NCBI GenBank assembly: GCA_009786195.1
Contig: WQTP01000041.1
Span: forward strand, 1 to 37,904
Origin: Candidatus Saccharimonadota bacterium
GTDB taxonomy: Bacteria; Patescibacteriota; Saccharimonadia; Saccharimonadales; Saccharimonadaceae
Length of the DNA stretch: 37,904 nt
Reading direction: 5' to 3'
Shown: in pieces, positions 4,785 to 22,390 of the stretch
Layout: every line of letters starts with the position of its first letter
Position numbering within the stretch: the stretch's first letter is position 1
Translations under genes and position numbers: made by a program
The notes under the pieces: model-generated
The model's input: only the letters and a program-made list of their open reading frames with translations
What the model was told of the DNA's origin: nothing
Database searches by the model: none

Positions 4785-5372
4785 TTATAAACTGGAATTA
4801 GAACACTCGCCATCGCGAGCTCGCCGATGTGCGCGGTGTCTGATGTAGATAATAGCAGCGACAACCACCACTGGCGCCCAGAACACGTTGATCACTGGCA
4901 CGGCATAACCACCGATATAGACCAAGAAACCAGTGCCCGGCACACCAATTGTGTCATAATCAACAACGAGCGTAGCTCTGGCGACATCGTCAATTTCGGT
5001 CCCGGTGTGAATAGCGGTCAAGATATATCTGCCCACACCACCAACCAGAGTAACTTCTGGATATAAATCTTCGACGGCCGCGTGGGTTTTATGATATTCG
5101 TACAGAATATTACCATTATGGTCGATGATTTTTATATCGCCAATACCAACCACCCGCAGATATAGTTTAACGCGACTGGATCTGGTGAGGTGTGATCCTA
5201 AATCCTCAGATCCAACCCCGCTAAACTTGACTATGTCGATAACTCCCGGGGAAGTAACTTGGATTAAATCAGTTCCCGAAATCGCGTTCGCGGTTGTGTT
5301 GATACCAGGCGTCGCAAAGATTGGTAATAATACGATCGCAATAATAGTCAGTAATCGACAGGCGGATTTCAT
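4785..5372 (-). CDS. Small secreted surface protein with P-G-T-G sorting-like tail
   Basis: 195 residues. A signal peptide (about 1-30, cleavage near TANA-IS) is followed by a beta-rich outer domain (about 31-142) and a C-terminal tail of VPGTG (144-148), a hydrophobic stretch to about 178 and a basic RHRAHRRAR end. The tail has the tripartite layout of LPxTG sorting signals, but with V-P-G-T-G. It is the locus 1 counterpart of the 372-residue protein at 19465. The ATG overlaps the stop of the DUF916-like gene (ATGA), so translation is coupled. By analogy with WxL clusters it would be the small anchored partner. No sortase gene is in the window. Confidence 0.6.
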   Translation of the reverse strand: MKSACRLLTIIAIVLLPIFATPGINTTANAISGTDLIQVTSPGVIDIVKFSGVGSEDLGSHLTRSSRVKLYLRVVGIGDIKIIDHNGNILYEYHKTHAAVEDLYPEVTLVGGVGRYILTAIHTGTEIDDVARATLVVDYDTIGVPGTGFLVYIGGYAVPVINVFWAPVVVVAAIIYIRHRAHRRARDGECSNSSL

Positions 5373-6307
5373 TGTTTTGCTCGCTTTTTCTTTAATTTAA
5401 CAAGAACAACGAGAAGTAAAATAATCGCGATAATAACAAAAACACTTAAAACAATTAACCAAATTGGACAGATTAACACTAATCTTTTATACTCAACAAC
5501 TCTGCCCAATAGTTCGGTACGGTGCGTGAAATGAAACAAACCCACAAGTGGTGGATCTTTCCATTTAAGAGTGCTAGTGTACTCAGTTTCTGGTAACAAA
5601 AAAGCTTTGATGGGTTTTTCGGAGTGATAGATTTCTGCCCCACCAAAGAAATTACTAACGATTAACTCAGTTTCTCCCGTCCAGTCAGTGTTACCTGAAT
5701 TCTTATACGTCAACAAAGTTTCAATGGGACCACCCGTATAGTATCCATTAATCTTGTTTTTTACAATTTCCCCCTCGTTGCGAGTATCACCAGCAATCGT
5801 AGCAAGAAACAACGAAGCGACCGATTGCACAGAACCAACTCCACTAGTAGCCTCTGGCGCAGTACTAGCAATGATAGCCATATATTGCCCACCAGCAGGT
5901 ACGTCAGTTGGCACCGTAATGTGGTAATGCACTTCTTTGGTTTCAGCGGATTTAAGCACGAACTCGGTCTCGTCAATAACCGTCCAACGATTTATTTGTG
6001 TGTAAATAGTTTCCTTTTGGAAGTTATTTTCATAATTAGTATCGACCGAAAATGGCACGGCTGACATCCGAACAGCATAATTGACTGAACCATCGTTGAT
6101 AACTTCGAGCGTACCGTCATAGGTCTTGCCGGGTTCCAACTCTACACTACCGCTCGCCGGATAGCGCGCAGGTATAAGTGTGAGACTGGAACCCGCCGAC
6201 AGCTCGCCCAACGCTGTGACGCTATGGGTAGAAACCAAATTTCCACCCAGCACTAATCCAACCACCAAGATTAATGCGACAAGACTAAACTTCTTTTGTG
6301 ATATCAT
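5369..6307 (-). CDS. DUF916-like (WxL-interacting type) membrane protein, locus 1
   Basis: 312 residues: signal peptide (about 1-32), two extracytoplasmic beta-sandwich-like parts, a C-terminal TM (about 282-304) and a basic tail KLKKKRAKQ. The N-terminal part (IPARYPASGSVELEPGK..., later VPTDVPAGGQYMAII) follows the DUF916 pattern of proteins that bind WxL proteins at Gram-positive cell surfaces. It is the paralogue of the 327-residue protein at 20660. A strong GGAGG ribosome binding site precedes the ATG. It lies 20 bp after the WxL-like gene and overlaps the anchor gene by 4 nt, so the three form an operon. Family assignment is by pattern only. Confidence 0.65.
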   Translation of the reverse strand: MISQKKFSLVALILVVGLVLGGNLVSTHSVTALGELSAGSSLTLIPARYPASGSVELEPGKTYDGTLEVINDGSVNYAVRMSAVPFSVDTNYENNFQKETIYTQINRWTVIDETEFVLKSAETKEVHYHITVPTDVPAGGQYMAIIASTAPEATSGVGSVQSVASLFLATIAGDTRNEGEIVKNKINGYYTGGPIETLLTYKNSGNTDWTGETELIVSNFFGGAEIYHSEKPIKAFLLPETEYTSTLKWKDPPLVGLFHFTHRTELLGRVVEYKRLVLICPIWLIVLSVFVIIAIILLLVVLVKLKKKRAKQ

Positions 6308-6327
6308 TTATCCTCCAAAACTGCCCG

Positions 6328-7050
6328 TTAAGGGTTAAGGGTAACACTAGCAGTGTAAAGAACATAATTAGCATAATCCAACCCACCATCCAGAGCATAA
6401 GTCGTACGAGCACCATACGATACATTCACGCCCGTAAAACCAGCCACGCCAGTTGGGCTAATCAAAGCAATGGCACTGCCAAATGCCGGAACTGCGGAAT
6501 ATGAACCAACAGCTGATCCGCCAACAGCGTATTTTTCGTAACCCCACTCACCACCAGTCGCCGTACCTGCACCAGTCAAAGTAGCATTACTAGCTGGTGC
6601 TAGAAACGTAAGAGACGCAGCATTAACCAGATTTTGACTATTGTTACAACCAGGAACAGCCAAATAGGCACCGCTAGTCGTAGCATTACACATTTGCACA
6701 GTCAAAGTATATCCATCCGGATTATTACTTTTAACTATCAGCCCAGTACCAGCGGTCACAACAGTGTTAGTTGTCGCCGTCATCCCACTGGCCAGAGTTT
6801 TGGCCGTAGTAATATCCGCCAGACCATTAATGTCCAGTGTATCAATTTGCGTACCACCCAGAATATCCAGCGTAATAGCGCTAGTAGTACTAATCTTGAC
6901 AAGCTCCGTACCGCCCACAATGCCGCTGGCGGTGTTAGTGTCACCCACCCCACCATCAGTAATAGCAGAAATTGGAGTAGTTACTGCGCCAAATAACACT
7001 AGCAGCAACAAACCCGCTGCGACGCCTATTGTTATATTTCGTATTTTCAT
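6328..7050 (-). CDS. Secreted WxL-like surface protein, locus 1
   Basis: 240 residues. A signal peptide (about 1-29) is followed by a Thr/Ser/Gly-rich beta domain with the pattern NNPDGYTLTVQM, GEWGYEKY and a final strand YTASVTLNP. The same NNPxGY...WGY...Y(T/S) pattern closes both giant IPT proteins of the window, so it is probably a shared surface-attachment module. A Cys pair (QMCNA, PGCNN) suggests a disulfide. GGAGGG precedes the ATG. The gene is 106 bp downstream of the giant IPT gene. The WxL comparison rests on the aromatic W-G-Y motif and the gene neighbourhood; the canonical W-x-L tripeptide is not seen. Confidence 0.6.
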   Translation of the reverse strand: MKIRNITIGVAAGLLLLVLFGAVTTPISAITDGGVGDTNTASGIVGGTELVKISTTSAITLDILGGTQIDTLDINGLADITTAKTLASGMTATTNTVVTAGTGLIVKSNNPDGYTLTVQMCNATTSGAYLAVPGCNNSQNLVNAASLTFLAPASNATLTGAGTATGGEWGYEKYAVGGSAVGSYSAVPAFGSAIALISPTGVAGFTGVNVSYGARTTYALDGGLDYANYVLYTASVTLNP

Positions 7051-7156
7051 AATTTTCCCTCCGATTAAGATTTATAATTTAAAGTGTTTTTTCAGGATTC
7101 TTTCGTTCTTATTGCATCATGGCGGCCCCTCTCTAGCTTTCAATAGATAATTCATT

Positions 7157-10100
7157 TTAGCCCCCTCCCGAATTAAGATTGATACTCAAAGTGTAAGTGA
7201 TGCTGCCCTGGTAAAGACAAACTGGTAAATTCCAACTGCCACGCGCGCCAAACCAAATTTTGTGATAATCAAAATTAGCCCCACTGTTAGCCGAAGGATT
7301 ATTAGTCGTAAAAATAGAAGTATCAGTGGTCGGTATCCCAAGCCAAGCGTTAGTGGCGGCCGAGGTGCCAATTTGATAACCCCAACTACCATTGTCCAAC
7401 GTATTACTAGTGGTGGCCGAATAGTATGATGCGTTATCTGTGGAACAATAAACCTTGTTGTCGCCACCCGTAGCAGCAAAATCCAGCGAATATCCGTCTC
7501 CCCAAGTGGTACGAGCACCCAACGTCAAATCAACCTGACCAGTGCTGTTGGGCGCGAGATTGATAGTGGGAGAGGAAACGGACAGAGTCAACTCGATACC
7601 GTAATAACTAAAAGCGTCAATCAGAGTATCATTCTCGAGACCATTATCAACCACCAAATCAACCAAATCAACCACATGAGCACCAGTAGTACAAGTGATA
7701 ATCGTATCAGTTAGATCACTCGCGCTCGCCACCAAGCACGGCGCGCCGCCCAAAGTAACCCCCAAACTAATAAACGCAGTTGCCGCGGTCGCATTGGCTG
7801 GTATAAAACTCTCACCAGAAATAGTTACGATCGTACCGCCATCTGTTGTTCCGCGATTTGGGCTGATTGACGAAATGGACATATGATTAATAAACGTAAA
7901 ACCATTAGTGATAGTGTTAGTAATACCAAACTGTTCTACATCAACATCAACCACGCCAACTGCATGCGCGGGGGTCGTAACTCGAATCTGCGTAGGACTC
8001 AACACTACGACGTTAGTAGCGGAAATTCCATCAAAAGTCACCGTAGCGGGTGCGTAAACATCAAAACCAGCACCATTAATAACAACCGAATCACCACCCG
8101 AAATATACCCACGATCCGGACTGAGACCACTGGTAGCTCCTTGGAAAGTATAAGTAAATGCGCCCGGCGCGTTGCGACTCAGCGTGGCCGCGTAATTATC
8201 TTGCAACACTAATATATCCACCGCACCAGGCGCATGCGCTGGCGTTGTTGCTGTAATCGTCGTGCTGTTTACAACCACAATATTCGTGGCCGCTATCCCA
8301 CCGAAAAAGATTTTCGTGTTACCACTTAAGAGGAAATTATTCCCCTTAATAGTAACACTAACTCCACCCACACTTAGCCCACTACTGGGTGATATCGAAA
8401 GTAATACATCCTCGTATAGATACCCACTAGTGATAGCACCAGTGATTGGGTCGATTGAACCACGATAAGTATAATCCGATTCACCATTATCGACAAAAAT
8501 ATCCGAAATCCCACCAGTGTGACTGGCGGTGGTACAAACAATAGTTGTGTTCGTAATATCACTAGCGCTGGCGATATTACAAATCGATCCGCCAATCGTG
8601 ACCACATAACTTTGCCAATAACCCGTCGCATCAACAGTACTAGCTTGGAAAAAGTTACTACCAGTGATAGTAACAACTTGCCCACCAGCGATTGGACCGC
8701 GAATCGGTGAAATTGTATCAACCACCATTGGATTACCATAGTAATAATCGCTCGCGTCCAGTGTTCCCGGTGTAGCTTGAACCCCATTCGCAAAAACTTC
8801 AACATCCACTCGACCCTCACCATTCCCACCCAGATTACTCGGTGGGACAACACAACTAATTTTCGTTTCACTAACTAATGTGGGATTCGAACATACTTGT
8901 CCACCCACCGTCACATTCAACGTTACTGGTACTTCCAATTCATTCGTTAATGTCGTTCCTGATGGCGAAAAAGTACCAAAACCCGCGTTTTCGATAAATT
9001 CACCCGTTACCATATCATAAAAACCATAAACTCCGTCAGTTTCTCTTTGAGCTGGTCGATAATCACGAACCAACACTCGACTACTACCACAAAGAGCATT
9101 ATTGATCTGATAAACAGTTCCGGGAGGTACAGCCCAGTTATTCGAAGAATCTTTATAATTCGGATCTTTACAAATCTGAGCACCATAAACCACACCCTTG
9201 AAACTACTGTATTTGGTTGCTCCGTTCGTCCCATACGCCCCACCGTGACTGAGTGAACCGATCAACATTTCCACTGGATTATTCATACTCACAAATGCCA
9301 CGTTGGCCAAATTAGCTTTAAGTGTTCCGTTCGAATTATAAAGAATAGTTGAACCATTATCCTTAACCACTGAAAAACGATCCACCGTGCCAAAATTAGA
9401 TATCGCATAAGTAGTTCCACTAGCACTGTTATAATCAGAACGCATATTACCACTAGTACAAGCCCAAATATTGAACGCATTACCACTACTAGTGTCACGA
9501 GCACCAAGCATACCCATATTATGGGTGGTTGGAGTACTACAAGCCGTTATATTGTATTTGAAATCCATCACGAACTTCGTACTACCAATTTGACTAAAAC
9601 CAGTTTCCAACCAAGAATCACCATCAAAAACAATTCCTTCGACGGACATGTATTGTTCGGGTGGTGTCGAATAAACACCACCATCGATTTCAATCGTATT
9701 TCCACCCGTGACGGGTCCGAATTTTGGATAAATACTATTCAGACGTAACGCATATTCAAAACCATTATTAACCGTGAATTGATTAATATTATCGATATAA
9801 ACAGTAACATTCTTTTTACCCAAAGAAAGTCCCGACGGAGTATGACAAGTTAATTCTGTATCACTAACCACGTCAACACCAGTACAGGGTCGTCCATCGA
9901 TTAGAACTTGAGTTTGAGTATCCGGCGAAACCCCACCGGGGATAGTCGCATCGATCGTGAATGTGCCACTAACAGTTGTACCACCAGTAATCGTACCACT
10001 ACCGACGTTCCCGTGGAATTGACGAGTAGCCAGGTCGACCACACCATACTCGCCAGTTGAGGTTTTTCTAACTGGAACGAAATTATGGTCAATTAGTGTT

Positions 10101-10774
10101 CCCGAATAAGTTCGCATTTGATAAAATGTCCCCCGATAATATCCAGCCGGACTAGCTGAACGACCAATCCAGATATTAGCGGATACAGTGGGCGCAGTGC
10201 CAAAAGCCGCCCCCATTGATCCGTTAACGTGGAAACTTCTAGCCCAGTCGAGCGTCATATCATTCTTGACCCCAACATTAACCAGTGCCGTCAGTGCTGT
10301 AGAAGCGGTAGCGCCAGCATAAGCAGTATAAGCGCCACTTGCACCCGCCACTCTAGCAAAACCAAATCTTTGACTTCCCGAACTATCAGAATTACCAAAA
10401 ACAACATTATCCGTCGAAGTATTAGAAGTATCCATCAAAAAACGCGCATTAATCGAATGATTTAGTTGACTAACTCCTGTATCAATATACGATGCTCCAT
10501 CAAATATCAGCGCTTCCACACGTTCATAATCACCCTTGAACCCACTACCAGTTACTGTAATAACCGTACCCCCCGCAATCGAACCGTTGTTGGGACTAAT
10601 ATTCGTTACCGTCAGTGCGACAGCCTGAACACTAAGCGGCGCCCTAAGACCCAAAAAAATCAACGAAAATACCACGATGGCGAACACAAAAAATACTCGA
10701 CGCAAAAAATTGTCTTTGCCAATTTGAAAACGTCTAGACCTTGCAGCAGTCTTCCTGAAACACTTGTTGGCCAT
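7157..10774 (-). CDS. Giant secreted IPT/TIG adhesin with nested lectin-like domains
   Basis: 1205 residues. The signal segment is at about 26-52. Six IPT/TIG modules follow, recognisable by I-S-P-x-x-G-x2-G-G-x2-V-x-I-x-G and (C/A)TTPAHxxGxVDV patterns (starts near 55, 345, 685, 790, 881 and 963). The first two are interrupted by concanavalin A/LamG-like domains (about 85-270 and 378-610; IFDGASYIDTG and VFDGDSWLETG). The C-terminus (about 1061-1205) is a WxL-like domain (GYSLDF, SWGYQIG, ITYTLSINL) with no TM. A surface adhesin or glycan-binding role is inferred. An extended -10 TGCTAAAAT (10791..10783) ends 8 nt before the ATG, so the mRNA is nearly leaderless. It is the first gene of surface operon 1. 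Confidence 0.75.
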   Translation of the reverse strand: MANKCFRKTAARSRRFQIGKDNFLRRVFFVFAIVVFSLIFLGLRAPLSVQAVALTVTNISPNNGSIAGGTVITVTGSGFKGDYERVEALIFDGASYIDTGVSQLNHSINARFLMDTSNTSTDNVVFGNSDSSGSQRFGFARVAGASGAYTAYAGATASTALTALVNVGVKNDMTLDWARSFHVNGSMGAAFGTAPTVSANIWIGRSASPAGYYRGTFYQMRTYSGTLIDHNFVPVRKTSTGEYGVVDLATRQFHGNVGSGTITGGTTVSGTFTIDATIPGGVSPDTQTQVLIDGRPCTGVDVVSDTELTCHTPSGLSLGKKNVTVYIDNINQFTVNNGFEYALRLNSIYPKFGPVTGGNTIEIDGGVYSTPPEQYMSVEGIVFDGDSWLETGFSQIGSTKFVMDFKYNITACSTPTTHNMGMLGARDTSSGNAFNIWACTSGNMRSDYNSASGTTYAISNFGTVDRFSVVKDNGSTILYNSNGTLKANLANVAFVSMNNPVEMLIGSLSHGGAYGTNGATKYSSFKGVVYGAQICKDPNYKDSSNNWAVPPGTVYQINNALCGSSRVLVRDYRPAQRETDGVYGFYDMVTGEFIENAGFGTFSPSGTTLTNELEVPVTLNVTVGGQVCSNPTLVSETKISCVVPPSNLGGNGEGRVDVEVFANGVQATPGTLDASDYYYGNPMVVDTISPIRGPIAGGQVVTITGSNFFQASTVDATGYWQSYVVTIGGSICNIASASDITNTTIVCTTASHTGGISDIFVDNGESDYTYRGSIDPITGAITSGYLYEDVLLSISPSSGLSVGGVSVTIKGNNFLLSGNTKIFFGGIAATNIVVVNSTTITATTPAHAPGAVDILVLQDNYAATLSRNAPGAFTYTFQGATSGLSPDRGYISGGDSVVINGAGFDVYAPATVTFDGISATNVVVLSPTQIRVTTPAHAVGVVDVDVEQFGITNTITNGFTFINHMSISSISPNRGTTDGGTIVTISGESFIPANATAATAFISLGVTLGGAPCLVASASDLTDTIITCTTGAHVVDLVDLVVDNGLENDTLIDAFSYYGIELTLSVSSPTINLAPNSTGQVDLTLGARTTWGDGYSLDFAATGGDNKVYCSTDNASYYSATTSNTLDNGSWGYQIGTSAATNAWLGIPTTDTSIFTTNNPSANSGANFDYHKIWFGARGSWNLPVCLYQGSITYTLSINLNSGGG

Positions 10775-10841: not shown

Positions 10842-11906
10842 CTACTTCTCAAACAACCCATCATGTCGGCGGTTGTTGTAGATCATCGTTGGGATTTTTT
10901 TAGTTCTGATTTTGTTATCAACGATATCGCGATTTTTATTAACGATTTTTTTCACCTGATTCGAATCGACCAATTTAATAATTTCCACTACTTCTTGGTC
11001 AGTATAACCAAAATCAGTTAACCAATCATTCAAAACCTTGCGCGCCGTCGCATCCGTATAAGTATAATTAAAAGCGTTTTGGAAATTATCACCGTCGGTC
11101 GTGTTGCCGGTAAATATGCGATCAATAATCAACCAATCAACTGGTCGTATTGCACTATCCAACGGATTCAGCAATCGCGCCGCTTCAATGTAACGACTGA
11201 TCAAATGAGAATTAGCAAAACGATCGCGAATCGGATAAACTAACATCGCTACGTTATATTTATCCATAAAACCGCTTTCTTTCTGAGCAATATAAGAGCG
11301 TCGACAAATGATGCATCCTGGGTCCATAACATCGAGCGCTATGGGTTTACTAGCGTCGTATTTGTTGAAATATGAGGGATTTTCAGGAAGAAAATCGCGT
11401 GCATCCCAAGTTCTCATGCGCGTTGGAATAGCCGCGATAGCTCCACCAAATTCAATGAACCAATTACCTGTCCATTGAAACGGATTTTCGAAGAAACTAA
11501 TTGGCTGACTATCGATGCTACAGGATTCGCTGGTACTTAGGGCGCAGGCGCTCGGTTGCGACGGATTGCAAGTATCATAAACATACAGCGATATCAACGA
11601 TTTTACGCCAACTAGTAGCGACCAAATCGTGATAAAGATTATCAACACCGAGACGATTTCAATAATGGCCGACAGGGGTTTAACCCAAGTTGGATGTTTG
11701 ATAACAACTTTGCGGAGAATTGAATTTTTAACATCATCCTTGAACGTTGAATCGCATTTTCGAAACGTCGCTCGACGCGACACACAGTACGTAGATTTCT
11801 TGAACAATTTCCAAATACTGTCCGCAGCTTTTTTGTTAAAAATACGAATAATCGGCAGCGACAAAACACAGATTGCTAGGACTATAAAAGCAGCAATACA
11901 AACCAT
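10842..11906 (-). CDS. Membrane-anchored DsbA-like thiol-disulfide oxidoreductase
   Basis: 354 residues. TM segments lie at about 3-21 and 79-103. A Cys-containing linker (113, 121, 129) leads to a thioredoxin-fold domain (about 185-350) with the CxxC centre C198-I-I-C201 (MDPGCIICRRSY) and a likely cis-proline loop in KIPTMIYNN. It probably oxidises cysteines in exported proteins. Its place between the two giant surface genes, which contain paired Cys in their IPT modules, fits a folding role for them. A TATACT box with extended TG (11921..11916) ends 9 nt before the ATG, near-leaderless. A thiol isomerase or reductase role is possible. Confidence 0.65.
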   Translation of the reverse strand: MVCIAAFIVLAICVLSLPIIRIFNKKAADSIWKLFKKSTYCVSRRATFRKCDSTFKDDVKNSILRKVVIKHPTWVKPLSAIIEIVSVLIIFITIWSLLVGVKSLISLYVYDTCNPSQPSACALSTSESCSIDSQPISFFENPFQWTGNWFIEFGGAIAAIPTRMRTWDARDFLPENPSYFNKYDASKPIALDVMDPGCIICRRSYIAQKESGFMDKYNVAMLVYPIRDRFANSHLISRYIEAARLLNPLDSAIRPVDWLIIDRIFTGNTTDGDNFQNAFNYTYTDATARKVLNDWLTDFGYTDQEVVEIIKLVDSNQVKKIVNKNRDIVDNKIRTKKIPTMIYNNRRHDGLFEK

Positions 11907-12044: not shown

Positions 12045-12080
12045 ATTCTGTGGAAAAATTTAACATAATTTCTGTGGAAA
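12045..12080 (+). promoter_or_regulatory. Two direct copies of a TTCTGTGGAAA motif (DnaA-box-like)
   Basis: ATTCTGTGGAAAAA (12045-12058) and TTTCTGTGGAAA (12069-12080) are repeated 25 bp apart. The complement TTTTCCACA resembles a DnaA box. A third copy lies at 22540-22552 upstream of the locus 2 WxL-like promoter at an almost equal distance from the -35 box. Confidence 0.5.
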
Positions 12081-12105
12081 GGTTGATTTTGACTCGTTTT
12101 CGTCC

Positions 12106-12134
12106 TTGCAAATTAAAAGCGTTATTGATAAAAT
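12106..12134 (+). promoter_or_regulatory. Promoter of the locus 2 giant gene
   Basis: TTGCAA (12106-12111), a 17-bp spacer and TAAAAT (12129-12134). The start near 12141 leaves a leader of about 38 nt containing GAGAGGG, which supports the ATG at 12179 as the gene start. Confidence 0.6.
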
Positions 12135-12178
12135 TAGTGAACGGGATAAGTGTAAGGCGAGAGGGTAAGAATATATTA

Positions 12179-15100
12179 ATGAAATTACGCCACGTGTGTT
12201 TTGGTATCATGAAAGGTCCAGGACACATCCGGCGAAAATATCTCGGTGTTTTTGTTGTTGCCAATCGGGGTCGTGCTCGATGGAGACGACGTCCTGATAT
12301 TGCGGGATGGCTAAAGCGCAAATGGCGAGAGTGTTCTGCTCGTTTTGCTGCTGCTGGTCCTTTAGTTGTTGTTGCGGTTGTAGGTATTTTTGTTTTTGTC
12401 GCTAATGCTGCTGTGGGTGATATATCGTTATCCCCACCGACTGGTCCGGCGACTGGTGGTACTATCGTCACTATGACTTCGGGAGCTGGTGGTTCGGCTG
12501 TTTGGTCCAATCAGGTTATTAATTTTCCATTTGGCGGTTCGGCTGGGACGACTGGTATGGAACAGACTTTTACAGCACCAGTAGCGGGACTTTATAAATT
12601 AGAAGTTTGGGGTGCTCAGGGGGGTAATGCTCCAACTGGTGGTCAGGGGGGTAAGGGTGGTTATAGTACTGTAACAGTTCAACTAAATGCTGGACAAATC
12701 ATTTATATTTCTTCGGGGGGTCAGGGTGGAGCTGCGAACGCGAGTACTGGAATTGGTGGGTGGAATGGTGGTGGTGGGACGAACAATAACACTGGTGGTG
12801 GGGGTGGTGGTGCTAGTCACATTTCACTCTCGAGCGGATTACTTAGTAACGCAACTGTACGTACGAATTTATTAGTCGCAGCTGGTGGTGGGGGTGGTAC
12901 GCAAAACAATGGTAACGCGGGTTGTCATGGTGGTTGGGGTGGTGGTACTACTGGTGGATCATCACAATCCAATGTTGGTGGTGCTGGTGCGTGTACGGGA
13001 AATGGTGCTAGTGGTGGTACTCAAACTGCTGGGGGTACTACTTTGGCTAGTCAAGGTGCAAGTGGTTCAGCTGGTCAGGGTGCTACTAGTACACAACAGG
13101 GAGGATCTATTTATGCGGGTGGTGGAGGAGGTGGTTATTTCGGTGGTGGTGCTGCTAATGGAACTGGTGGTGGAGGAGGTGGTGGATCGGGTTGGTTACG
13201 CACAGCGGCGCTCAATAGTGTTGCGATCACAAATAGTAGTACGATAGCTGGTAACTCAACTATTACTGAACCGAACGGTACAACAGCGACCGGTCATACT
13301 GGTGCTGGTTACGCTCGGGTGACGATTCTGTCAGCGGGTCTCTTCGTTAAACCAACTGTTCAGTTTGGCTCAGTGACAATTGCTGATGCTAACGTGACTT
13401 GGTGTAATTATAACGGGTCGACTTGTACGAATGGTGGTGCACCGAATACTGTAACATTTATCACGCCGGCACGCGGTTCGTTGCCGGCCACTAATAATGT
13501 TTGGTTGACTTTTGATCCTAGTAAAACTGGTGAGTTTACTTATTATACGCCAGCAACTTCTTATACTCATTTATGTTTAGCCGCTAACGGCGTTGATTGG
13601 GTTAGTCAGCGTAGTATCGCGGCTAATACAGCGACCATCTGTCGTATCGTTCTTAATAATGCGTTTAGTGGCACGATTAGTTTAGCTGATAGTTATGCTA
13701 GTAACATTAATCCTAGTTTGTCGGGTAGTTTTGCGAGTGCGGATTCACGTTTTAACGCGGGTACAGCGACATTTACGGTTGATTATACGGATACTTATAA
13801 TTCGACTGGTCAAACATTAACGTATACTTATACTTCGCCAGCGTGGAATACGTTAATCAGTAATTGGAATCCTGATGGTAGTAATCAGGTTAATTTGATG
13901 AGACCGACCCTAACGGCCACTGCGGTATCCAATAGTGGTGTGCCGGATATTGTGCTGGCGGGTGATAATTTAGTTTTGAGTATTTTAGCGGAATCATACA
14001 AAATTATTCCACCGGATCGTTTTTCCGAATTATCTGAATCGATGTTATCAATTACAACTTATGGGGCGATTTATAATGGAACTATTACTATTTCAGAAGA
14101 TTTATCAAATAGTGATTGTGCGGGGGGTAGTTCAGTTCCGTGTTTGTCGGGTGTGTTTAATTCGACCACGATTAATTTTGGTAGTTTGGGGTTGAATGGT
14201 GCTGATTATACGGGTTTACGTTATACTCCAAAAACGACCGCGGTGTCGCCAAATTACATTATTATCAAAGGTAGTAGTGCTGGTCCGAATATTACGAATG
14301 ATTCAATAAATATTCACGTTATTCCAAAAGTTATGTTGATCACTGGTCCGTTAGAGATTTCGCGTGGTGAGACACATGAATACACAGTAACTGTGTATTC
14401 TCCTGATTTTAATATTTTAACGTTGGATGATTTTTTGAACGGGACGGGAATTTTGGCCGGTGGTGTGTTTTCTGATACTTCAGCGACTAATGGTTATCCG
14501 GGCGGAACTTTTTCGGGTGGTAAATATTATGATGTAAGTAGTTGTACGATTGGGACGCTAAGTACGAGTGCTTGTGTGCGTACTTTTACCTATACAGCGC
14601 CGAGTAATCTGGTAAATACTTCATCGTATATTCGTTTGGATATTAATGCCGAAACTGGTGATTTTGCATTTTTGAATGTTGATGTGGTTGCGGATGCGTT
14701 GACGTTTGCTTGTAGCGCAAGTAATCCAACTTGTACGATTGCATATGTTGGTGAATCGCAGATTTATGATGTGCGTCCAAACGGTGTATTTACTGGGTCG
14801 ACCGTATTATCATCACCAGATGCAAGTTCGAGTTTTGGTTCTAGTAGTACAATCTCGTGGTCAAATAGTTCTGGTGCTTCTGGAGTTAGTTATACCCCGG
14901 GTGCTCCTGGGCGGTATGTGTTGAGTGCAAATGTAACTAGTAGTCCAGATCCAAATATGAATGGAAAAACTTTTTATAGTAATTCAACTGATTCATTGAA
15001 TGATTATATTTGGGTAATCGCGAATAAAACAACATTCTTTACGGGGGATGATACTATTCCAAATGGTGGTAGTGGTACTTATACTTTAGCGCTCAATGGT

Positions 15101-18100
15101 CCTTTTGTTGGAACAGTTATTCTATCCGATAATGATACAGTAAATGGTATACCTCAGGGTGGAACATTTGATAATGGTGGTATTTGTGATTTTACATTTT
15201 CAAATTATAGTCCTTCGACTAATACTTCGACTTGTACATTTACCTATACACCAACTATCGCAGCAGAAGAACGTACGATTACACTAGCACCGGGATTTCC
15301 GCCCGAATTTGCGCGTCCGATGGATATTGATCCGATTGATATTACGGTTTATGGTTTTCCGGATATTCGATTTATTAATCCGATCGAAGGTCCATCGATC
15401 GGTGATAACACAGTTTGGATCACTGGGGCGGGGTTAAAGGGTGTTTCGTTTATCACTTTTGGTGGAGAAATTGATGGAATAACAAATGAAGTGATGGGTG
15501 GATCACCGTGCACAAATCTACACATTATCAGTGATACGATCGTAACGTGTAACGCACCAGCACACGTGGCGGGTCAGGTGAATGTGTTTGCGAATAATAT
15601 TATCCCACCGGATGATATTGATAATACTGATCCGAATAATCCGATCATAACACCCCGCGATCCGGTGCAGTACACATATTTTGAAGTAGCGGAAGATTTT
15701 GTTAATGAATGTTACGTGGGGGGTGTTTGGACGACTGAACCACGAGTTGCACCGGGTACGACGGTTAATTGTCGAGTAGTTTTGGATGGTCGTTGGAATG
15801 GTCCTGTACAATTATCTGATGATTGGCACGATACGATTGATCCAGGATTAAAGGGTACTTTTACATCGAGTGATTCGCGATTTAATTCTAGTACAAGTAC
15901 GTTTTCTGTAACATACACAGATACGGTTGATAGTACGGGTCAAACTTTGAATTATACTTGGACATCACCCAGTTGGAATACACTAAAAAGTTATTGGATA
16001 TCCGATGGAAGTAACGAGGATGATTTGTGGTGGCCACTGATTAATGTGGAAATTCCGATTGATGAATATGAATCGATTTATCTAACTTCGTCTGGTGACG
16101 ATGTGGTTTTTGGTATGTTAGCCCAAGAATACTTTATGGAACTAAATGGGGTTTTTCCGTTCTTTTGCACGGGTTGTGAAATCGCATTTAACCTATCAAC
16201 CTATGGCGCACCATACGAAGGGACCATTGCTTTATCGGAAAATCTGAGTAGTAGTGATAATTCATCAGGTACACCCGGTGTGTTTGGTGCTGAGGGGGTT
16301 TTTGGAAATAACGTAATTCACTTTTCGGGTAGTGATGGTGCAGTTTCAGGTTTTGGTTTTGTTCCAAATACAACAGCCACGGGTAGTAACTTTATTCGAA
16401 TTTGTGGTACAAGTAGCACTCCATCTATTTCTGATAGTTGTTTTGATATTTCGCCGATTATTGATGCGGGGATAAAAATCACCCCAGCGCCGAATTCAAC
16501 ATCGTTAGCGCGTGGGGGCACAGGAACTTACACACTTGAAATTACGATTGGTCCAACTTGGGGTGGTACGATTCAATTATCTGATGTGTTCAATATTGGA
16601 GGATCAGGTAACGGAGTGTTCGCTGATGTAACGACGGGTCCAAATCCAGTAGGAACTTTTAATCCTAGTACAAATACTTATACGTTTTCGTCGGGTGAAA
16701 CATACATTCGTACTTTTACTTATACTTTGCGTGATGATAGTGTGAGCGGACCACTTTTCCCATCATATATTATGCAATTAACCGCTGAATCAAATAGTCC
16801 AAATAATCATGCGTATACGAATGTTTATGTTGATGCAAATCGGATTATGACAAAGTGTAGTTTGAGTTATCCAAATTGTACGATTGCTTATGTTGGAGTT
16901 TTGCAGGATTATGCGCTCCAACCCAACGGTATGTTGGTTGGTACGGGTAGTGTGAGTGCTAGTGACGCTGGGCTACTTGGCACTGCTACTTGGTCAGCGG
17001 CAGCACCCTTCACTATGTCATATACCCCAACCGCGCCAGGTCGACAAATAATTACTACCACAATCACGAATAGTGTTAATTCTGGTTTAATTGGAAAAAG
17101 TTTTCAATCTACTGCGAGCGATTCATTAAATGATCATATTTGGGTGATGGCGAATCAAATGACGATTACTGGACCAAGTTATCTACGTTATGGAGTAACT
17201 GGAACTTTTACACTAACAATGAATGGTCCATTTATCGGAACTATTGATTTATCTGATTTATTAGGTGGGAGTCCAGCGGGTGGTGTTTTCTCGCCGGATG
17301 ATCTTTGTACTTTTGACCTACTCGATTACGATTTTGCGACTAATACAACTTCTTGTAACTTTGATTATACCCCGGATCTATTCGAGTATATGACTAACGT
17401 AGTATTATCACCATCAACTAATAGTTACATCGGTCCGATGAGCGGCACATCACTATCAGTCACGATCTATGGACGACCAATTATCGACACAGTTTCACCG
17501 GATTCTGGACCAACTATCGGGGGGATTGGTTTTGATATTAGTCACGATCCAAACGGTATCATCATAGTTTCGGGCACAAATCTAGCAACTGGTAGCGCAC
17601 TCAACTTTGATAGTTTGTTTATGGGAAATATCCCAGTTAATCTAAGTAGTATCAATATCATCGATGATGATAATATCTCATTTGTCCCACCCCCCAATGC
17701 GGCTGGGGGTGTCGATGTGACTGTGGGTGTTGGACCTAGGATCTATCATCATCCCGATTATTATACTTATATTCCAGAACTCATCAGTATCAACCCGACC
17801 CTGGGTCCAACGACGGGGGGTCAGGGTTTTGGAGTTAGCTATGATCCGAACGGTGTAGTAACAATTACCGGAAATGATATAACGGGTGCATCCAGATATT
17901 CGGATGGTACAAATCAGTATTATGGTTTAGGTTGGTTGGATTTTAACGGATCACAGTATATTGATACTAACGTTAATCAACTAGGTAACACTACTATGAC
18001 ACTCGATGCAACGCGCAACAGTGGTCAATACGTCGCAGGAGTATTAGTCGCCGGTGATTATTATGTAATTACACTACCAACCAGCGGATTTATGTTACCA

Positions 18101-19468
18101 ACCGCGAATTATGGAAACGCTAACGCCACCGCTGGCGGTGCTATGAACTCTGGAGATCGAATATCAGCAACACTCAGCGCTGATGGTACCAAAGCTATGT
18201 TTACGGTTAGTCTAAACGGTGGATCAAACAACTTTAACCAGATTGTTCCTGGAACTCTACCTCATACCCCGTACAATATCTATTTGGGTAGTGCGAATAA
18301 TGGTGCCGGTATAGCCGGAGGGATGATCGGCAAAGTTTATAGTTTTAGCATCGACAAAGATAGTGATGCTGATGATCGTAATCTAGTACCAGTTTGCACA
18401 ATGGATGGATTAACGGGTGGTATGTTTGATACTTTGCACAATGTTTTTTACCCATCCAATGGTGCACCGTTTAGTTGTGATAATTCTAGTATCACCCCGC
18501 CCACAGTTCATTTTGACAATACCAAAGTGTCAGCTAGTAACATTGTTGTTGTGGATCTCAACACTATTAAAGTTATTCCGCCAGCGCATGACGAAGGACT
18601 GGTCGATGTTGTTGTAACGGTTAATGATCTTGTACTAACTTTAACAGACGCTTACACTTATCGTATGCCACTAACAATCTACACTGTTTATCCGCCAACT
18701 GGTTCAATCGATGGTGGTGATGTTATCACAATTACTGGTCATAATTTTATTTCATTTGAAGGACCACCTTCGCTAGCTTTACCAATTTCTGTTACATTAG
18801 ACATTGAGGGCGTTTCGGCTGTTTGTGTGATCGCGAACGTAGCAACTGATGTGACAAACGATAGTATAATTTGTACTACCGCCGCTCATGATCCTGGTCT
18901 AGTATCCGTTACGGTGAATAATAGTGTCGAGATTGATACGATGGCGGCTACAATCGATCCTGGCGGCAGCAATATGCCTGTTCTGAATAAACAGGGTCGC
19001 TCTATTGGTGGATTTCTTTATATGGACGATATTTTCCTGCAAATTGATGCTTCCGCTAGTTCAGTAGTTCTCAATATAGCTCCAACTTCGCCGTTTGATC
19101 AAGATTATGTATCTGTTGGGGTCACCACCAATAATCCTAGTGGTTATAGTTTATATATCGAGAGTTCAGGCGCTAATTTGATTTGTGCAACAAACTCTTC
19201 GTTAGTTATTCCGCCAACTATTGGTAATGCCATCGATGCTAAAACGTGGGGTTTTCAAGTTGGTGCATCCACCACTTCAACTGGTTGGGCTTCCACCCCA
19301 ACTACTCCAACATTGATCGCTGCGAATTCAGGTCCTACATTCGCTCCATCAACGTCACCTACAGCTGAGAATACTCAAGTAAATTTCGCTGTTCGAGACG
19401 GTCAGCCCCCACTTACCCCTTGTTCAGTGTATAAGCAAGTTGTTACATATTCTGCAATAACTAATTAG
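12179..19468 (+). CDS. Giant secreted adhesin: Gly-rich, IPT, lectin-like and WxL-like domains
   Basis: 2429 residues from the ATG at 12179, chosen over a GTG at 12050 because promoter and GAGAGGG lie between them. A basic N-terminus precedes the export TM (about 57-78). IPT module 1 (from about 81) is interrupted by a glycine-rich domain (about 108-384; YKLEVWGAQGG, GGKGGYS, GGGGGGASHI, as in the ALK-type Gly_rich family). Two long copies of a repeat superdomain follow (about 464-1055 and 1171-1766, both with STGQTL-Y-(Y/T)(T/W)TSP-WNTL), separated by an IPT module. Then come IPT (1770-1866), IPT with nested LamG-like insert (1869-2160; FNGSQYIDTNVNQLG), IPT (2164-2261) and a WxL-like end (2284-2429; NNPSGYSLYI, TWGFQVG). 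Its stop overlaps that of the convergent anchor gene. Confidence 0.75.
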   Translation: MKLRHVCFGIMKGPGHIRRKYLGVFVVANRGRARWRRRPDIAGWLKRKWRECSARFAAAGPLVVVAVVGIFVFVANAAVGDISLSPPTGPATGGTIVTMTSGAGGSAVWSNQVINFPFGGSAGTTGMEQTFTAPVAGLYKLEVWGAQGGNAPTGGQGGKGGYSTVTVQLNAGQIIYISSGGQGGAANASTGIGGWNGGGGTNNNTGGGGGGASHISLSSGLLSNATVRTNLLVAAGGGGGTQNNGNAGCHGGWGGGTTGGSSQSNVGGAGACTGNGASGGTQTAGGTTLASQGASGSAGQGATSTQQGGSIYAGGGGGGYFGGGAANGTGGGGGGGSGWLRTAALNSVAITNSSTIAGNSTITEPNGTTATGHTGAGYARVTILSAGLFVKPTVQFGSVTIADANVTWCNYNGSTCTNGGAPNTVTFITPARGSLPATNNVWLTFDPSKTGEFTYYTPATSYTHLCLAANGVDWVSQRSIAANTATICRIVLNNAFSGTISLADSYASNINPSLSGSFASADSRFNAGTATFTVDYTDTYNSTGQTLTYTYTSPAWNTLISNWNPDGSNQVNLMRPTLTATAVSNSGVPDIVLAGDNLVLSILAESYKIIPPDRFSELSESMLSITTYGAIYNGTITISEDLSNSDCAGGSSVPCLSGVFNSTTINFGSLGLNGADYTGLRYTPKTTAVSPNYIIIKGSSAGPNITNDSINIHVIPKVMLITGPLEISRGETHEYTVTVYSPDFNILTLDDFLNGTGILAGGVFSDTSATNGYPGGTFSGGKYYDVSSCTIGTLSTSACVRTFTYTAPSNLVNTSSYIRLDINAETGDFAFLNVDVVADALTFACSASNPTCTIAYVGESQIYDVRPNGVFTGSTVLSSPDASSSFGSSSTISWSNSSGASGVSYTPGAPGRYVLSANVTSSPDPNMNGKTFYSNSTDSLNDYIWVIANKTTFFTGDDTIPNGGSGTYTLALNGPFVGTVILSDNDTVNGIPQGGTFDNGGICDFTFSNYSPSTNTSTCTFTYTPTIAAEERTITLAPGFPPEFARPMDIDPIDITVYGFPDIRFINPIEGPSIGDNTVWITGAGLKGVSFITFGGEIDGITNEVMGGSPCTNLHIISDTIVTCNAPAHVAGQVNVFANNIIPPDDIDNTDPNNPIITPRDPVQYTYFEVAEDFVNECYVGGVWTTEPRVAPGTTVNCRVVLDGRWNGPVQLSDDWHDTIDPGLKGTFTSSDSRFNSSTSTFSVTYTDTVDSTGQTLNYTWTSPSWNTLKSYWISDGSNEDDLWWPLINVEIPIDEYESIYLTSSGDDVVFGMLAQEYFMELNGVFPFFCTGCEIAFNLSTYGAPYEGTIALSENLSSSDNSSGTPGVFGAEGVFGNNVIHFSGSDGAVSGFGFVPNTTATGSNFIRICGTSSTPSISDSCFDISPIIDAGIKITPAPNSTSLARGGTGTYTLEITIGPTWGGTIQLSDVFNIGGSGNGVFADVTTGPNPVGTFNPSTNTYTFSSGETYIRTFTYTLRDDSVSGPLFPSYIMQLTAESNSPNNHAYTNVYVDANRIMTKCSLSYPNCTIAYVGVLQDYALQPNGMLVGTGSVSASDAGLLGTATWSAAAPFTMSYTPTAPGRQIITTTITNSVNSGLIGKSFQSTASDSLNDHIWVMANQMTITGPSYLRYGVTGTFTLTMNGPFIGTIDLSDLLGGSPAGGVFSPDDLCTFDLLDYDFATNTTSCNFDYTPDLFEYMTNVVLSPSTNSYIGPMSGTSLSVTIYGRPIIDTVSPDSGPTIGGIGFDISHDPNGIIIVSGTNLATGSALNFDSLFMGNIPVNLSSINIIDDDNISFVPPPNAAGGVDVTVGVGPRIYHHPDYYTYIPELISINPTLGPTTGGQGFGVSYDPNGVVTITGNDITGASRYSDGTNQYYGLGWLDFNGSQYIDTNVNQLGNTTMTLDATRNSGQYVAGVLVAGDYYVITLPTSGFMLPTANYGNANATAGGAMNSGDRISATLSADGTKAMFTVSLNGGSNNFNQIVPGTLPHTPYNIYLGSANNGAGIAGGMIGKVYSFSIDKDSDADDRNLVPVCTMDGLTGGMFDTLHNVFYPSNGAPFSCDNSSITPPTVHFDNTKVSASNIVVVDLNTIKVIPPAHDEGLVDVVVTVNDLVLTLTDAYTYRMPLTIYTVYPPTGSIDGGDVITITGHNFISFEGPPSLALPISVTLDIEGVSAVCVIANVATDVTNDSIICTTAAHDPGLVSVTVNNSVEIDTMAATIDPGGSNMPVLNKQGRSIGGFLYMDDIFLQIDASASSVVLNIAPTSPFDQDYVSVGVTTNNPSGYSLYIESSGANLICATNSSLVIPPTIGNAIDAKTWGFQVGASTTSTGWASTPTTPTLIAANSGPTFAPSTSPTAENTQVNFAVRDGQPPLTPCSVYKQVVTYSAITN
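12500..13330 (+). repeat. Low-complexity GGT-rich tract encoding the glycine-rich domain
   Basis: Long runs of GGT/GGG codons produce stretches of up to six or seven Gly. It is coding sequence, part of the giant adhesin, but its repetitive nature makes slippage or assembly collapse possible. Confidence 0.7.
13570..17475 (+). repeat. Internal tandem duplication of about 1.8-2.1 kb in the giant gene
   Basis: Unit A (about 13570-15340) and unit B (about 15690-17475) encode the same succession of segments. Shared landmarks in order: an SLSGSFAS/GLKGTFTS stretch followed by DSRFN, STGQTL...WNTL, a C-T-I-A-Y-V-G segment, TDSLNDYIWV / SDSLNDHIWV, then L-N-G-P-F-(V/I)-G-T and a final VYG or IYG before an IPT module. 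Similarity is clear in protein and partly eroded in DNA, so the duplication is not recent. Confidence 0.75.
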
Positions 19469-20583
19469 ATAAAAGTTATTTTTATTCTTCCAGTTTTTTT
19501 CTTTGATTCTGTTTTTTTCTGTCCATTTTTTTGATCGTTGCGTTTTTTGAGAATAATTACAGTTACGATGGTTACAAACAATAGTAAAACTCCGGTGCTT
19601 AGTAGTAGGTCAGTGATCGCAAACGTTAACCCGCCGATTCTCAGCACACCAGTATTTGGTGGTTCAACACCTTCTGGCCAATAATGAACAATCCATTCAA
19701 CACTAATAGTTCGCCCATTCAGACCCGTAACTATCAGTTTAATAATGTTACGACCAACATGTAAACCTGGTACACCATTATTTGCGGCGTCAACTAGGTA
19801 TGTCGCGTAACCTGTTCCTGAATCAATTGGTAGGGGTACACCATCATAGATAATACTAACGTTACCGTTGTTATCAGTTACTAATAGTTGTATCCTATTC
19901 GCATTATCAGCGTTCAGTTTAACGTGTAATGGTAAATCACTATCTTTCGCTACTTGGTCTGTCACGCCATTCACATATGGCAGACTGTTACCACTGTTAT
20001 TAGTTAATTTATAGTCAATAATTCTCGGATCTGGTCGATCGGGTAGAACATAATTAATAATAATTTGTCGATGAATGTCTTGCGCTGGACTATGAATCGC
20101 ACTCTTGACATAAATATCCAAAATATTTTGTCCGAGTTGAAGATAACTGGATAATCCACTACTCGGTAATATTTCAAACATCTGACCAATCGCGTCATAA
20201 GCCGCATCACCACTAGAGAATAGTTGATTAAATAATTCGAAACCAAGTGGTGCGGGATAGGCGCTATTAGTCAACGTTACTACTAATTGCGCAGTGCCCT
20301 TGACGGTAGTGTTAATTGTGACGTTCGTGTCATTGATATCAAACTCACCACTACTATTTGGTAGAATCGGTTGACCGCTCTGATCGTTGATAAGTTCATC
20401 AATCAAATCAGTGCAGACGGTATCGCAGGTTACTGTTACACTAACTGTAGTTGTACCTAACACATCCGGATCGCGCATTATCATCACTATTTTGAAAATA
20501 ATCGCTCCCACCACCACCAACCCAGCCGCTATACCGGCTACCCAGAGTTTGATTTTCGCTTGTTTGGTTTTCGATTTCTTCAT
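19465..20583 (-). CDS. Surface protein with P-N-T-G sorting-like tail, locus 2
   Basis: 372 residues. An N-terminal signal/TM (about 13-36) leads to an outer region with CDTVCTDLI (a close Cys pair) and beta-rich segments, then the tail PPNTG (308-312), a TM to about 345 and a Lys-rich end. This is the LPxTG-type tripartite layout with P-N-T-G, matching VPGTG in the locus 1 counterpart. It lies 77 bp after the DUF916-like gene. No strong ribosome binding site is seen; a TTGACA-type box inside the 77-bp gap might give an extra promoter. No sortase is in the window, so the anchoring enzyme is unknown. Confidence 0.6.
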   Translation of the reverse strand: MKKSKTKQAKIKLWVAGIAAGLVVVGAIIFKIVMIMRDPDVLGTTTVSVTVTCDTVCTDLIDELINDQSGQPILPNSSGEFDINDTNVTINTTVKGTAQLVVTLTNSAYPAPLGFELFNQLFSSGDAAYDAIGQMFEILPSSGLSSYLQLGQNILDIYVKSAIHSPAQDIHRQIIINYVLPDRPDPRIIDYKLTNNSGNSLPYVNGVTDQVAKDSDLPLHVKLNADNANRIQLLVTDNNGNVSIIYDGVPLPIDSGTGYATYLVDAANNGVPGLHVGRNIIKLIVTGLNGRTISVEWIVHYWPEGVEPPNTGVLRIGGLTFAITDLLLSTGVLLLFVTIVTVIILKKRNDQKNGQKKTESKKKTGRIKITFI

Positions 20584-20659
20584 CAGGTCGTCTTTACTTA
20601 AAAATATCTATAATCGTTTTATCATCTTGTTGTATGATTTGTCAACTTTCTCTCAGTTC

Positions 20660-21643
20660 TCAGACTTTCTTACTTTTACCACTTTTGTTTTTACGAATCT
20701 TGACATAAATCCACAGTGTTAGTGATAGAATTATCACAATAATTGCTACTATTAGCGCCAATGGTATAACTAAAACTGTTTTAGTCAGCATGATAGTTTC
20801 ATCCAAAATCGTTACTTCAACTGTTACTTTGAAAAGTCCTAGATTTGGAGTTTTATCCCATTTGTCTGTTAAGAGTCGTTCTGTTTCTGCCATAACGAGC
20901 GACTTTTTGGCCTCAGAATAGACTTCCTTTTGACCAAAGAATGTCTGGATCGTCATTTTGTATTTAGCTTCAAAATCCAGAGAACCAGTGTTTTTCACTA
21001 AAATTGATGTTTTAATTGGTGGAACAAACAGTAGTTTGGGAATTTTTATCTCAACAACTTGTCCCTCTGATTTTGCGCCAGGAGCATCAACATCGTTCCT
21101 GATAATGTAACCTATCCGATAAGTGTTGACAATTGTGCTATTACCTTTACCACTTTCTGGCGGCACTGTTTGCACAAAAATCGCTGCGTGCTGACTGCCG
21201 CCATAAGCATCTGCCGGTACGGTAATTTTGTATGTTACATAACATTCTTCTTGAGGACGCATGGTAAAGTAAATCCGACCTTTTTCCTCTTTATTGATTG
21301 TGCAATCTTGCAGCCCCAGAGTCGTCCACTCAGTAATTTTAGTATAGGCTGAAGTCTGGTTAAAGATTCCCGTTTCGTATCTTTCGTCTTCACCGGCAGC
21401 ATATGGACTTACCTCCGCAAACACTTCTGTAGTTTCGATGCCCGGAGAACGTACACGAAATCTACCTTCTGTCACACTACCGGGATCCATAGTTAAACGC
21501 GCATTCAACATTGGTGAAACAGCAATACCAATATTATTGTCCTGTACGATATCTTTATTAATTTTGGCTGAGGCAACTGAACTAATAAATACTGCACCAA
21601 TCACTGACAAGCCAGCTAACAGTACTAATTTTCTGTATTTCAT
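20660..21643 (-). CDS. DUF916-like (WxL-interacting type) membrane protein, locus 2
   Basis: 327 residues: signal peptide (about 1-26, ending SVASA-K), an outer region starting GIAVSPMLNARLTMDPGSVTEG and containing ITVPADAYGGSQHAAIFV (the DUF916-like core), a second beta domain, a C-terminal TM (about 292-315) and a basic tail KIRKNKSGKSKKV. It is the paralogue of the locus 1 protein at 5369 and shares the P-x-G-G-(Q/S)(Q/Y) segment. A very strong GGAGGGG ribosome binding site precedes the ATG. It sits 123 bp downstream of the WxL-like gene with a large hairpin between. It probably holds the WxL-like proteins at the membrane. Confidence 0.65.
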   Translation of the reverse strand: MKYRKLVLLAGLSVIGAVFISSVASAKINKDIVQDNNIGIAVSPMLNARLTMDPGSVTEGRFRVRSPGIETTEVFAEVSPYAAGEDERYETGIFNQTSAYTKITEWTTLGLQDCTINKEEKGRIYFTMRPQEECYVTYKITVPADAYGGSQHAAIFVQTVPPESGKGNSTIVNTYRIGYIIRNDVDAPGAKSEGQVVEIKIPKLLFVPPIKTSILVKNTGSLDFEAKYKMTIQTFFGQKEVYSEAKKSLVMAETERLLTDKWDKTPNLGLFKVTVEVTILDETIMLTKTVLVIPLALIVAIIVIILSLTLWIYVKIRKNKSGKSKKV

Positions 21644-21718
21644 TTCCCCTCCAATTAAGTTAAATCACTCTTATCTTATCGTAACTGGAAAACTTTTAAG
21701 GTTCATCCATTCGCGACC

Positions 21719-21756
21719 CAATTCCGATGGCTTGCTCATGTGAAGCCATCGAATTG
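21719..21756 (-). promoter_or_regulatory. Long intergenic hairpin between WxL-like and DUF916-like genes
   Basis: CAATTC+GATGGCTT pairs with AAGCCATC+GAATTG (14 bp, one bulged G) around a 9-nt loop. No T run follows on either strand, so it is not a classic terminator. It starts 10 nt after the WxL-like stop, where it could stabilise that mRNA or reduce read-through and so set the ratio of secreted to membrane component. Confidence 0.6.
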
Positions 21757-21766
21757 AAACACGATC

Positions 21767-22390
21767 TTAAACACCAGTCAAAGTATAAAGAATAGTTGAC
21801 TCGTAAGTATCCTCAGCTAAAGATCCATCGGTTTTAGCACCAAAGGTTTGTTCTATGTTGTAACCTGATACAGCAACGCCGTTAGCTACAACTTTCGGGG
21901 TCGTTGTCACACTATGAAAAGCTTGTGCACCTGTTGCAACTGAGTTACTTCCCTTAGCGGCAACTTCAGCATATTTCATACCCCAAGTATTAACGGTAAA
22001 ATCACTAGCGTTGCTTGCTGTACCAGCTGTCCAAGATGTGAACCCAATAGCACTACTTACATTACCAACCAAGTTAACCGTCGCACCACTAGTGGTGTCG
22101 ATTTCCTCAGTTAATGTCCATGTGTCGTTGTTACAAACAATACCCAAGTATTCGCCTGAGGCTGACGAAACTGCCTTATTCGGCGTTGTGGTCGTCAGAT
22201 TTAACGATAGCGTATCGGCGCCACCGTTTCCACTACCACTCGTACTACCAATAACACACTCTGTCTCAATAACGACCTCTACATCCGTTGAGGTAGTGTC
22301 TGTCGCCGCATAGGACGCCAACGGCATGACAACCGCCGCGAACATTACTACAGCACCAGCTGCAGCAATTACTCTGACAATCTTCTTCAC
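21767..22390 (-). CDS. Secreted WxL-like surface protein, locus 2
   Basis: 207 residues from a GTG at 22390, chosen because it yields a clean signal peptide (MKKIVRVIAAAGAVVMFAAVVMPLASYA) and has AGAAGGG upstream; an in-frame ATG at 22426 would add a poorly fitting extension. The mature part is Ser/Thr/Gly-rich with a Cys pair (ETECVIG, GIVCNND), NTWGMKY and a C-terminal strand ESTILYTLTGV, the same pattern as the other WxL-like ends in the window. A full promoter lies at 22484-22512 with a TTTCTGTGGAAAA motif 27 bp above it. It is the first gene of the minus strand half of locus 2 and is probably abundant. Confidence 0.6.
   Translation of the reverse strand: MKKIVRVIAAAGAVVMFAAVVMPLASYAATDTTSTDVEVVIETECVIGSTSGSGNGGADTLSLNLTTTTPNKAVSSASGEYLGIVCNNDTWTLTEEIDTTSGATVNLVGNVSSAIGFTSWTAGTASNASDFTVNTWGMKYAEVAAKGSNSVATGAQAFHSVTTTPKVVANGVAVSGYNIEQTFGAKTDGSLAEDTYESTILYTLTGV

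Follow-up and report, generated by a model that had tools for sequence, protein, structure and literature searches.

Two Saccharibacterial gene clusters as a probable divergent counterpart of the WxL/WxLIP surface-display system

The window, the whole stretch of 37,904 nucleotides analysed here, is contig C41 (WQTP01000041.1) of a Candidatus Saccharimonadota genome (GCA_009786195.1; 772 kb, 43 contigs). It carries two gene clusters, each encoding a giant surface protein, a small secreted protein, a homologue of the Bacilli anchor protein WxLIP, which serves the WxL surface system of gut Gram-positives, and a protein with a P-x-TG motif. The four genes of cluster I all lie on the minus strand. 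Giant surface protein I (7157..10774, 1205 amino acids) has a signal or transmembrane segment at residues 21-55, TIG repeats (eight stretches, Pfam TIG E=7e-69) and a C-terminal domain, termed here the attachment domain, at approximately 7157-7591. Small secreted protein I (6328..7050, 240 amino acids) is a signal peptide followed by the attachment domain alone, with the motifs NNPDGYTL ... WGY ... Y..YVLYTAS and no significant Pfam or NCBIfam match. WxLIP homologue I (5369..6307, 312 amino acids) has a signal peptide, two immunoglobulin (Ig)-like domains, a C-terminal transmembrane helix and a basic tail, and P-x-TG protein I (4785..5372, 195 amino acids) a signal peptide, the sequence VPGTG, a transmembrane helix and a basic tail.

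In cluster II the giant gene is on the plus strand and the other three are on the minus strand. Giant surface protein II (12050..19468) is an open reading frame of 2472 codons with a glycine-rich domain (PF12810, E=2e-26), four TIG repeats (E=9e-18) and a C-terminal attachment domain at approximately 19046-19468; its start is more likely to be the ATG at 12179 than the start of the frame at 12050, because GAGGG precedes the former. P-x-TG protein II (19465..20583, 372 amino acids) consists of an N-terminal transmembrane helix, PPNTG, a further transmembrane helix and a long basic tail; WxLIP homologue II (20660..21643, 327 amino acids) of a signal peptide, two beta-sandwich domains, a transmembrane helix (residues 295-326) and a basic tail; and small secreted protein II (21767..22426, 219 amino acids) of the attachment domain alone, the first motif of which is literally W-T-L (CNNDTWTLTE). 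Direct Pfam and NCBIfam scans of the window proteins gave significant matches only to the glycine-rich domain and to models of TIG and TIG-like repeats. A sequence-only reading of the window had described two copies of a four-protein set resembling a WxL system; gene content and recurrence in other genomes bear out the composition of both, but the genome has three sets, the third being on contig C42 (L039:8668-11986), where a small protein, two WxLIP homologues and a VPNTG protein are encoded with no giant adjoining.

That the window anchor proteins are genuine WxLIP homologues may be taken as established, because profile-profile comparison, a profile search of the Protein Data Bank (PDB) and a structure search agree; all three point to WxLIP, as the earlier description of these proteins as DUF916-like had anticipated. 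In both, a signal peptide is followed by about 270 residues and then by a C-terminal transmembrane helix with a basic tail; neither by itself has a significant Pfam match or reaches the cut-off of PF06030 (WxLIP_PGBD). PF06030 is the commonest Pfam family among 28 Saccharibacteria relatives of the anchor (11 matches, best 7e-6) and matches 19 times among 20 relatives from other families (best 4e-10), where PF11797 (WxLIP_HBD) matches once. When compared by hhalign with a reference profile of 11 Bacilli WxLIP proteins from plasmid records, the Saccharibacteria profile A1, which includes WxLIP homologue I itself, reached a probability of 97.9% over 272 columns comprising both Ig domains and the transmembrane helix, and the anchor profile of other families scored 99.3%; control cross-comparisons gave 9.3% and 0.6%. 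In the PDB, the other-family profile found two solved Enterococcus faecium WxLIP sequences at E=4.8e-7, the next match being unrelated at 0.41; the Saccharibacteria profile also ranked E. faecium WxLIP first, but only at E=0.03. An AlphaFold model of WxLIP homologue II (predicted local distance difference test, pLDDT, 90.7) retrieved E. faecium WxLIP at ranks 1-3 of 350,542 PDB chains in Foldseek (E 9e-12 to 1e-10), followed by RbmA and then by pilus chaperones. DUF916, DUF3324 and the C-terminal transmembrane helix, by which WxLIP of Bacilli WxL clusters is recognised, are all found by way of relatives and profiles. In six-frame searches of 101 genomes of the window's family, PF06030 exceeded its cut-off in 27, some matches belonging to a second branch. 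This second branch, often in two copies about 3.4 kb apart, was seen in genomes G019, G046, G032, G050 and others in which the WxLIP type of the window was not found.

Of the genomes searched, 55 of the 101 in the family and 124 of the 287 sampled across the phylum encode a WxLIP-like protein. The recurrence of the gene set in other Patescibacteria, named beforehand as a test of the proposal, was found across genera and families, and because the four-protein set recurs it is not a product of chance. By contig title, 80 loci with anchor relatives comprise 73 of Saccharibacteria, one of TM7, five of Nomurabacteria metagenome-assembled genomes and one of a Coriobacteriales metagenome-assembled genome. 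The WxLIP homologue on the contig titled Coriobacteriales (L153) would reflect either a binning error or transfer to Actinomycetota. In Saccharibacteria the gene order is a small protein (not always present), one or two WxLIP homologues and a P-x-TG protein. In other families a gene with the attachment domain directly precedes the WxLIP homologue at 17 of 19 loci and a P-x-TG protein is generally not seen, so that the more widespread core is the pair of domain and WxLIP homologue, whereas the P-x-TG gene looks like a feature of Saccharibacteria. Four loci of other Patescibacteria (L209, L215, L218, L220) encode dockerin-like proteins (VDLVDFSIMMFYW) next to WxLIP homologues. A dockerin-domain protein has been reported to be essential in a Saccharibacteria strain (PMC10633639).

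The P-x-TG proteins of the window have three features of a sortase substrate (P-x-TG, a transmembrane helix and a basic tail) and not the fourth, the Leu of LPxTG, whose absence the sequence-only reading had recorded correctly for VPGTG in cluster I and PPNTG in cluster II. Its statement that no sortase is present is true of the window only; the genome has five matches to PF04203 (sortase), and at least one sortase exceeds the cut-off in each of the 101 family genomes. The genome also has conventional sortase substrates, since on contig C43 (L225:5418-7245) a protein with a canonical LPKTG and a transmembrane helix directly precedes a sortase. In Saccharibacteria, 62 of the 85 same-strand, non-WxLIP genes downstream of a WxLIP homologue encode XPxTG with a transmembrane helix by a strict pattern, an undercount in that several of the remaining genes hold the motif in a form that the pattern misses; the motifs are mostly VPDTG and VPNTG, and the background is 9 of 730 other open reading frames. 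The P-x-TG profile has an hhalign probability of 73-87% against Bacilli WxLIP; the P-x-TG protein may have diverged from the anchor as a paralogue, or the likeness may be an effect of the shared transmembrane helix and basic tail.

By alignment, one domain is common to both small proteins and to the last approximately 140 residues of both giants. The four copies have the motifs NNPDGY, NNPSGY, TTWGDGY and CNNDTWTL, so that the pattern NNPxGY proposed for all of them holds for two, whereas the W-G-(Y/F/M) element is present in each (as Y, Y, F and M). The domain model A10 scores E=1e-31 with giant I and E=5e-25 with giant II, the sequences of both being included in it; the window sequences score highly by construction, because the profile was built with those four sequences. 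Elsewhere in the genome the domain profile matches the small protein on contig C42 (E=1e-22) and three weaker places, and the small-protein profile has matches in 59 of the 101 family genomes; these very frequently fall within open frames of 500-2,000 codons. Extension by iteration yielded 70 non-redundant sequences (L147 and L176 were excluded from the alignment, the ends taken being another domain type) with the consensus V.TNa..GYtLt ... L ... gT..gWG ... Y.avp ... v.Yga ... aGtY..tvtYTaT. The domain is not always C-terminal, since a 619-amino-acid protein on contig C13 (L232:241-2100) has it near the N-terminus, ahead of a different C-terminal half. The AlphaFold model of small protein II has a mean pLDDT of 74, with approximately 80-95 in the C-terminal half, and its best Foldseek matches are chaperone-usher pilins (CsuA/B, FimA, CfaB) at E of approximately 2e-3, none being below 1e-3.

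Part of the attachment-domain family already has a name, of which a reading of the window alone could not have known. In a scan of 24 phylum-wide relatives with NCBIfam models, NF058581 (Pam pilus system pilin subunit) matches 14 (best E=6e-34) and NF058579 (CPR-type pilus protein PamT, CPR being the Candidate Phyla Radiation) matches five, counts that include matches below the curated cut-off; the Pam pilus is considered here through the names of these models. Matches to NF058581 occur in 72 of the 287 phylum genomes (15 over the cut-off), 69 of which also encode a WxLIP-like protein, and WxLIP-like genes lie inside Pam-type clusters. The small proteins might accordingly be pilins of the Pam type that assemble a strand-exchange fibre, with the WxLIP homologue serving as chaperone or base tethered to the membrane, and the giants as tip or stalk adhesins bearing the same subunit domain. 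Besides these matches, the pilins ranked first for small protein II and the pilus chaperones that follow WxLIP and RbmA in the anchor search would fit such a fibre. However, the pilin fold matches are weak, NF058581 matches neither the window proteins nor any other part of the genome, and NF058579 likewise scores nothing with the window proteins; each cluster encodes a single small protein where Pam-type clusters have several pilin-like genes, and the window adds giant TIG proteins. To our knowledge, no usher is known for a monoderm. Although it is the strongest competitor, this pilin arrangement is somewhat unlikely. The chaperone-usher pili themselves (CsuC with CsuA/B, FimC with FimA) embody a similar idea, a two-Ig partner and a subunit with an incomplete sandwich, and show weak fold similarity, but they belong to a Gram-negative envelope, whereas the window system has no usher and its partner is membrane-anchored; in profile comparison the Fim subunits are at background.

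Whether the attachment domain is a divergent WxL domain, as had been proposed, is a separate matter, on which architecture, the partner gene and a score above shuffled and decoy profiles speak for the proposal and the lack of a Pfam or PDB match to WxL speaks against it. The hhalign probability of the domain against WxL is 3-44%, varying with alignment and direction and below the usual thresholds. Given this result, and given that DUF916-like domains exist outside WxL systems, it could be that an independent beta-sandwich was recruited to a WxLIP-like Ig scaffold and that only the anchor is shared with Bacilli. Three observations make such an origin quite unlikely. The domain-WxL score of 22.3 exceeds those of all 60 column shuffles (maxima 14.0 local, 6.7 global) and, because column shuffles do not model general beta-sandwich composition, unrelated decoys were added, which reached at most 13.4 locally and 2.4 globally in a small set of Fim pilin, TIG (three sequences), P-x-TG and WxLIP profiles. 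A forced global profile alignment places GYxL opposite GWxL and the terminal Y..tvtYTxT opposite Y.TTLTWxL. Tryptophan and tyrosine are exchanged in both directions, W being found at motif 1 in 13 of the 70 CPR sequences (including small protein II) and at motif 2 in three, and Y at motif 1 in two of 15 Bacilli WxL proteins. On the basis of this alignment and exchange, we infer that the counterparts of the WxL motifs are an early G(Y/W)xL and, at the end of the domain, Y..TVxYTxT; WGY is probably not the W-x-L counterpart that it was first thought to be, W-G-(Y/F/M) being a separate conserved element with W in 40 of the 70 sequences. Homology of the attachment domain to WxL is likely but unproven. 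Since PF13731 (Pfam WxL) did not match and the candidate positions of the two W-x-L motifs are occupied by Y in most CPR sequences, the system was not filed as a member of WxL; the domain is distinct and phylum-wide, probably WxL-related and overlapping a named pilin family. The reading in which the motif-bearing transmembrane proteins and the secreted proteins are ordinary neighbours with no common function was rejected on recurrence and is highly improbable, for although some WxLIP-like genes, notably in ruminant-gut Saccharibacteria, have no recognised small protein alongside, gene order is conserved over many genera and families and co-occurrence is strong.

The reading preferred here, at a probability of about 0.6, is that the loci encode, for Patescibacteria, a divergent counterpart of WxL/WxLIP surface display that is also related to the Pam pilus. 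In the publications that describe them, WxL clusters consist of small WxL, large WxL and WxLIP genes, often with LPxTG (PMC9772566, PMC10599100), and Bacilli WxLIP has the architecture DUF916-DUF3324-transmembrane helix, with solved structures 9i1y and 9i25, the latter with its partner. The window clusters have the same four components, with small, large and WxLIP genes grouped together; the anchor is homologous, one beta domain occurs both standalone and C-terminally, and the small gene directly precedes the anchor gene. They differ in that Y mostly replaces W, the P-x-TG gene comes after the anchor gene, and the CPR consensus lacks the PGBD signature NQIDKxxxYFDLK. The likeness to the Pam pilus is that the phylum-wide attachment domain includes NF058581 members and that both adjoin WxLIP-like genes. 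Several results weigh against this counterpart reading. PF13731 is unmatched in the genome and among 19 + 24 relatives, the WxL chain 9i25_A is not among the matches listed in PDB sequence searches with the domain models, and it is not among the best 50 Foldseek matches of the small protein II model. PF06030 also matches in Thermotoga maritima, so that DUF916 is not exclusive to WxL and alone is no proof of a WxL system. The TM-scores of the WxLIP matches are modest (0.36-0.38 by query, with a root-mean-square deviation of approximately 8.4), probably because the two domains are oriented differently to each other. The P-x-TG motif, besides having no Leu, is some 12-15 residues from the transmembrane helix in many relatives. 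The co-occurrence of domain and anchor in the family (WxLIP homologue in 55 of the 101 genomes, domain in 59, both in 52) speaks for the counterpart reading, but this count, like that for NF058581, is of genomes, not evolutionary events, and ignores shared ancestry.

If the loci are such a counterpart, the cargo tag would be the beta-sandwich domain, which stands by itself in the small secreted proteins and is C-terminal in the giants, and the membrane-anchored two-Ig WxLIP homologue would keep this tag on the cell surface, beta-strand insertion being the likeliest means. PMC10599100 describes a prediction for WxLIP in which a long hairpin takes on an ordered form and occupies a gap in the beta-sandwich of WxL. 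The corresponding loop of WxLIP homologue II may lie at approximately residues 160-175, a lower-confidence stretch inside the fold (block mean 78), because in the profile alignment the segment from E. faecium follows that same strand there. In fold searches the anchor resembles pilus chaperones and the small protein resembles pilins, which fits the idea of a donated strand, and strand insertion is proposed for that reason. The neighbouring P-x-TG protein might attach the assembly to the envelope at a second point, perhaps with the help of one of the sortases of the genome, and the domain could bind the wall. The giant TIG-repeat arms might reach out to host cells or other surfaces, host adhesion being suggested by the TIG-repeat giants together with the episymbiotic lifestyle of the group.

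Between the clusters, a membrane protein with a C-x-x-C motif (CIICRRS; 10842..11906, minus strand) belongs to no Pfam family at a significant level. It is a possible thiol oxidoreductase, and because the C-terminal domains of both giants have two cysteines each, a disulfide-forming role in association with the surface system is conceivable. Genes for tRNA-Arg (11941-12017) and tRNA-Lys (22672-22748) flank cluster II, and the end of cluster I adjoins the same tRNA-Arg gene. The region may be an exchange hot spot; the GC content (0.42-0.44) is not unusual.

In culture, Patescibacteria live on other cells to which they are attached; what, besides type IV pili, lets them hold on is largely an open question (PMC12206443, PMC10633639). 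More than 91% of known WxL sequences were reported from Firmicutes (PMC9772566), and no open paper was found in the literature that connects Patescibacteria substantively with WxL or DUF916. More speculatively, and with rather less confidence than would make it the favoured view, the Bacilli WxL/WxLIP systems, the Pam pilus of CPR bacteria and the Saccharibacteria giant adhesins might be branches of one cross-phylum machinery, in which a membrane-anchored two-Ig protein completes the beta-sandwich tag of secreted fibres and adhesins by a donated strand and which, in episymbionts, would present adhesins that grip the host bacterium. The homologues described here extend WxLIP beyond Firmicutes. 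An anchor whose homologue has been solved together with its partner (9i25) and which is so widespread in the phylum is a concrete target for work on attachment, and the shared C-terminal tag could be used to catalogue the giant surface proteins encoded in Patescibacteria genomes.

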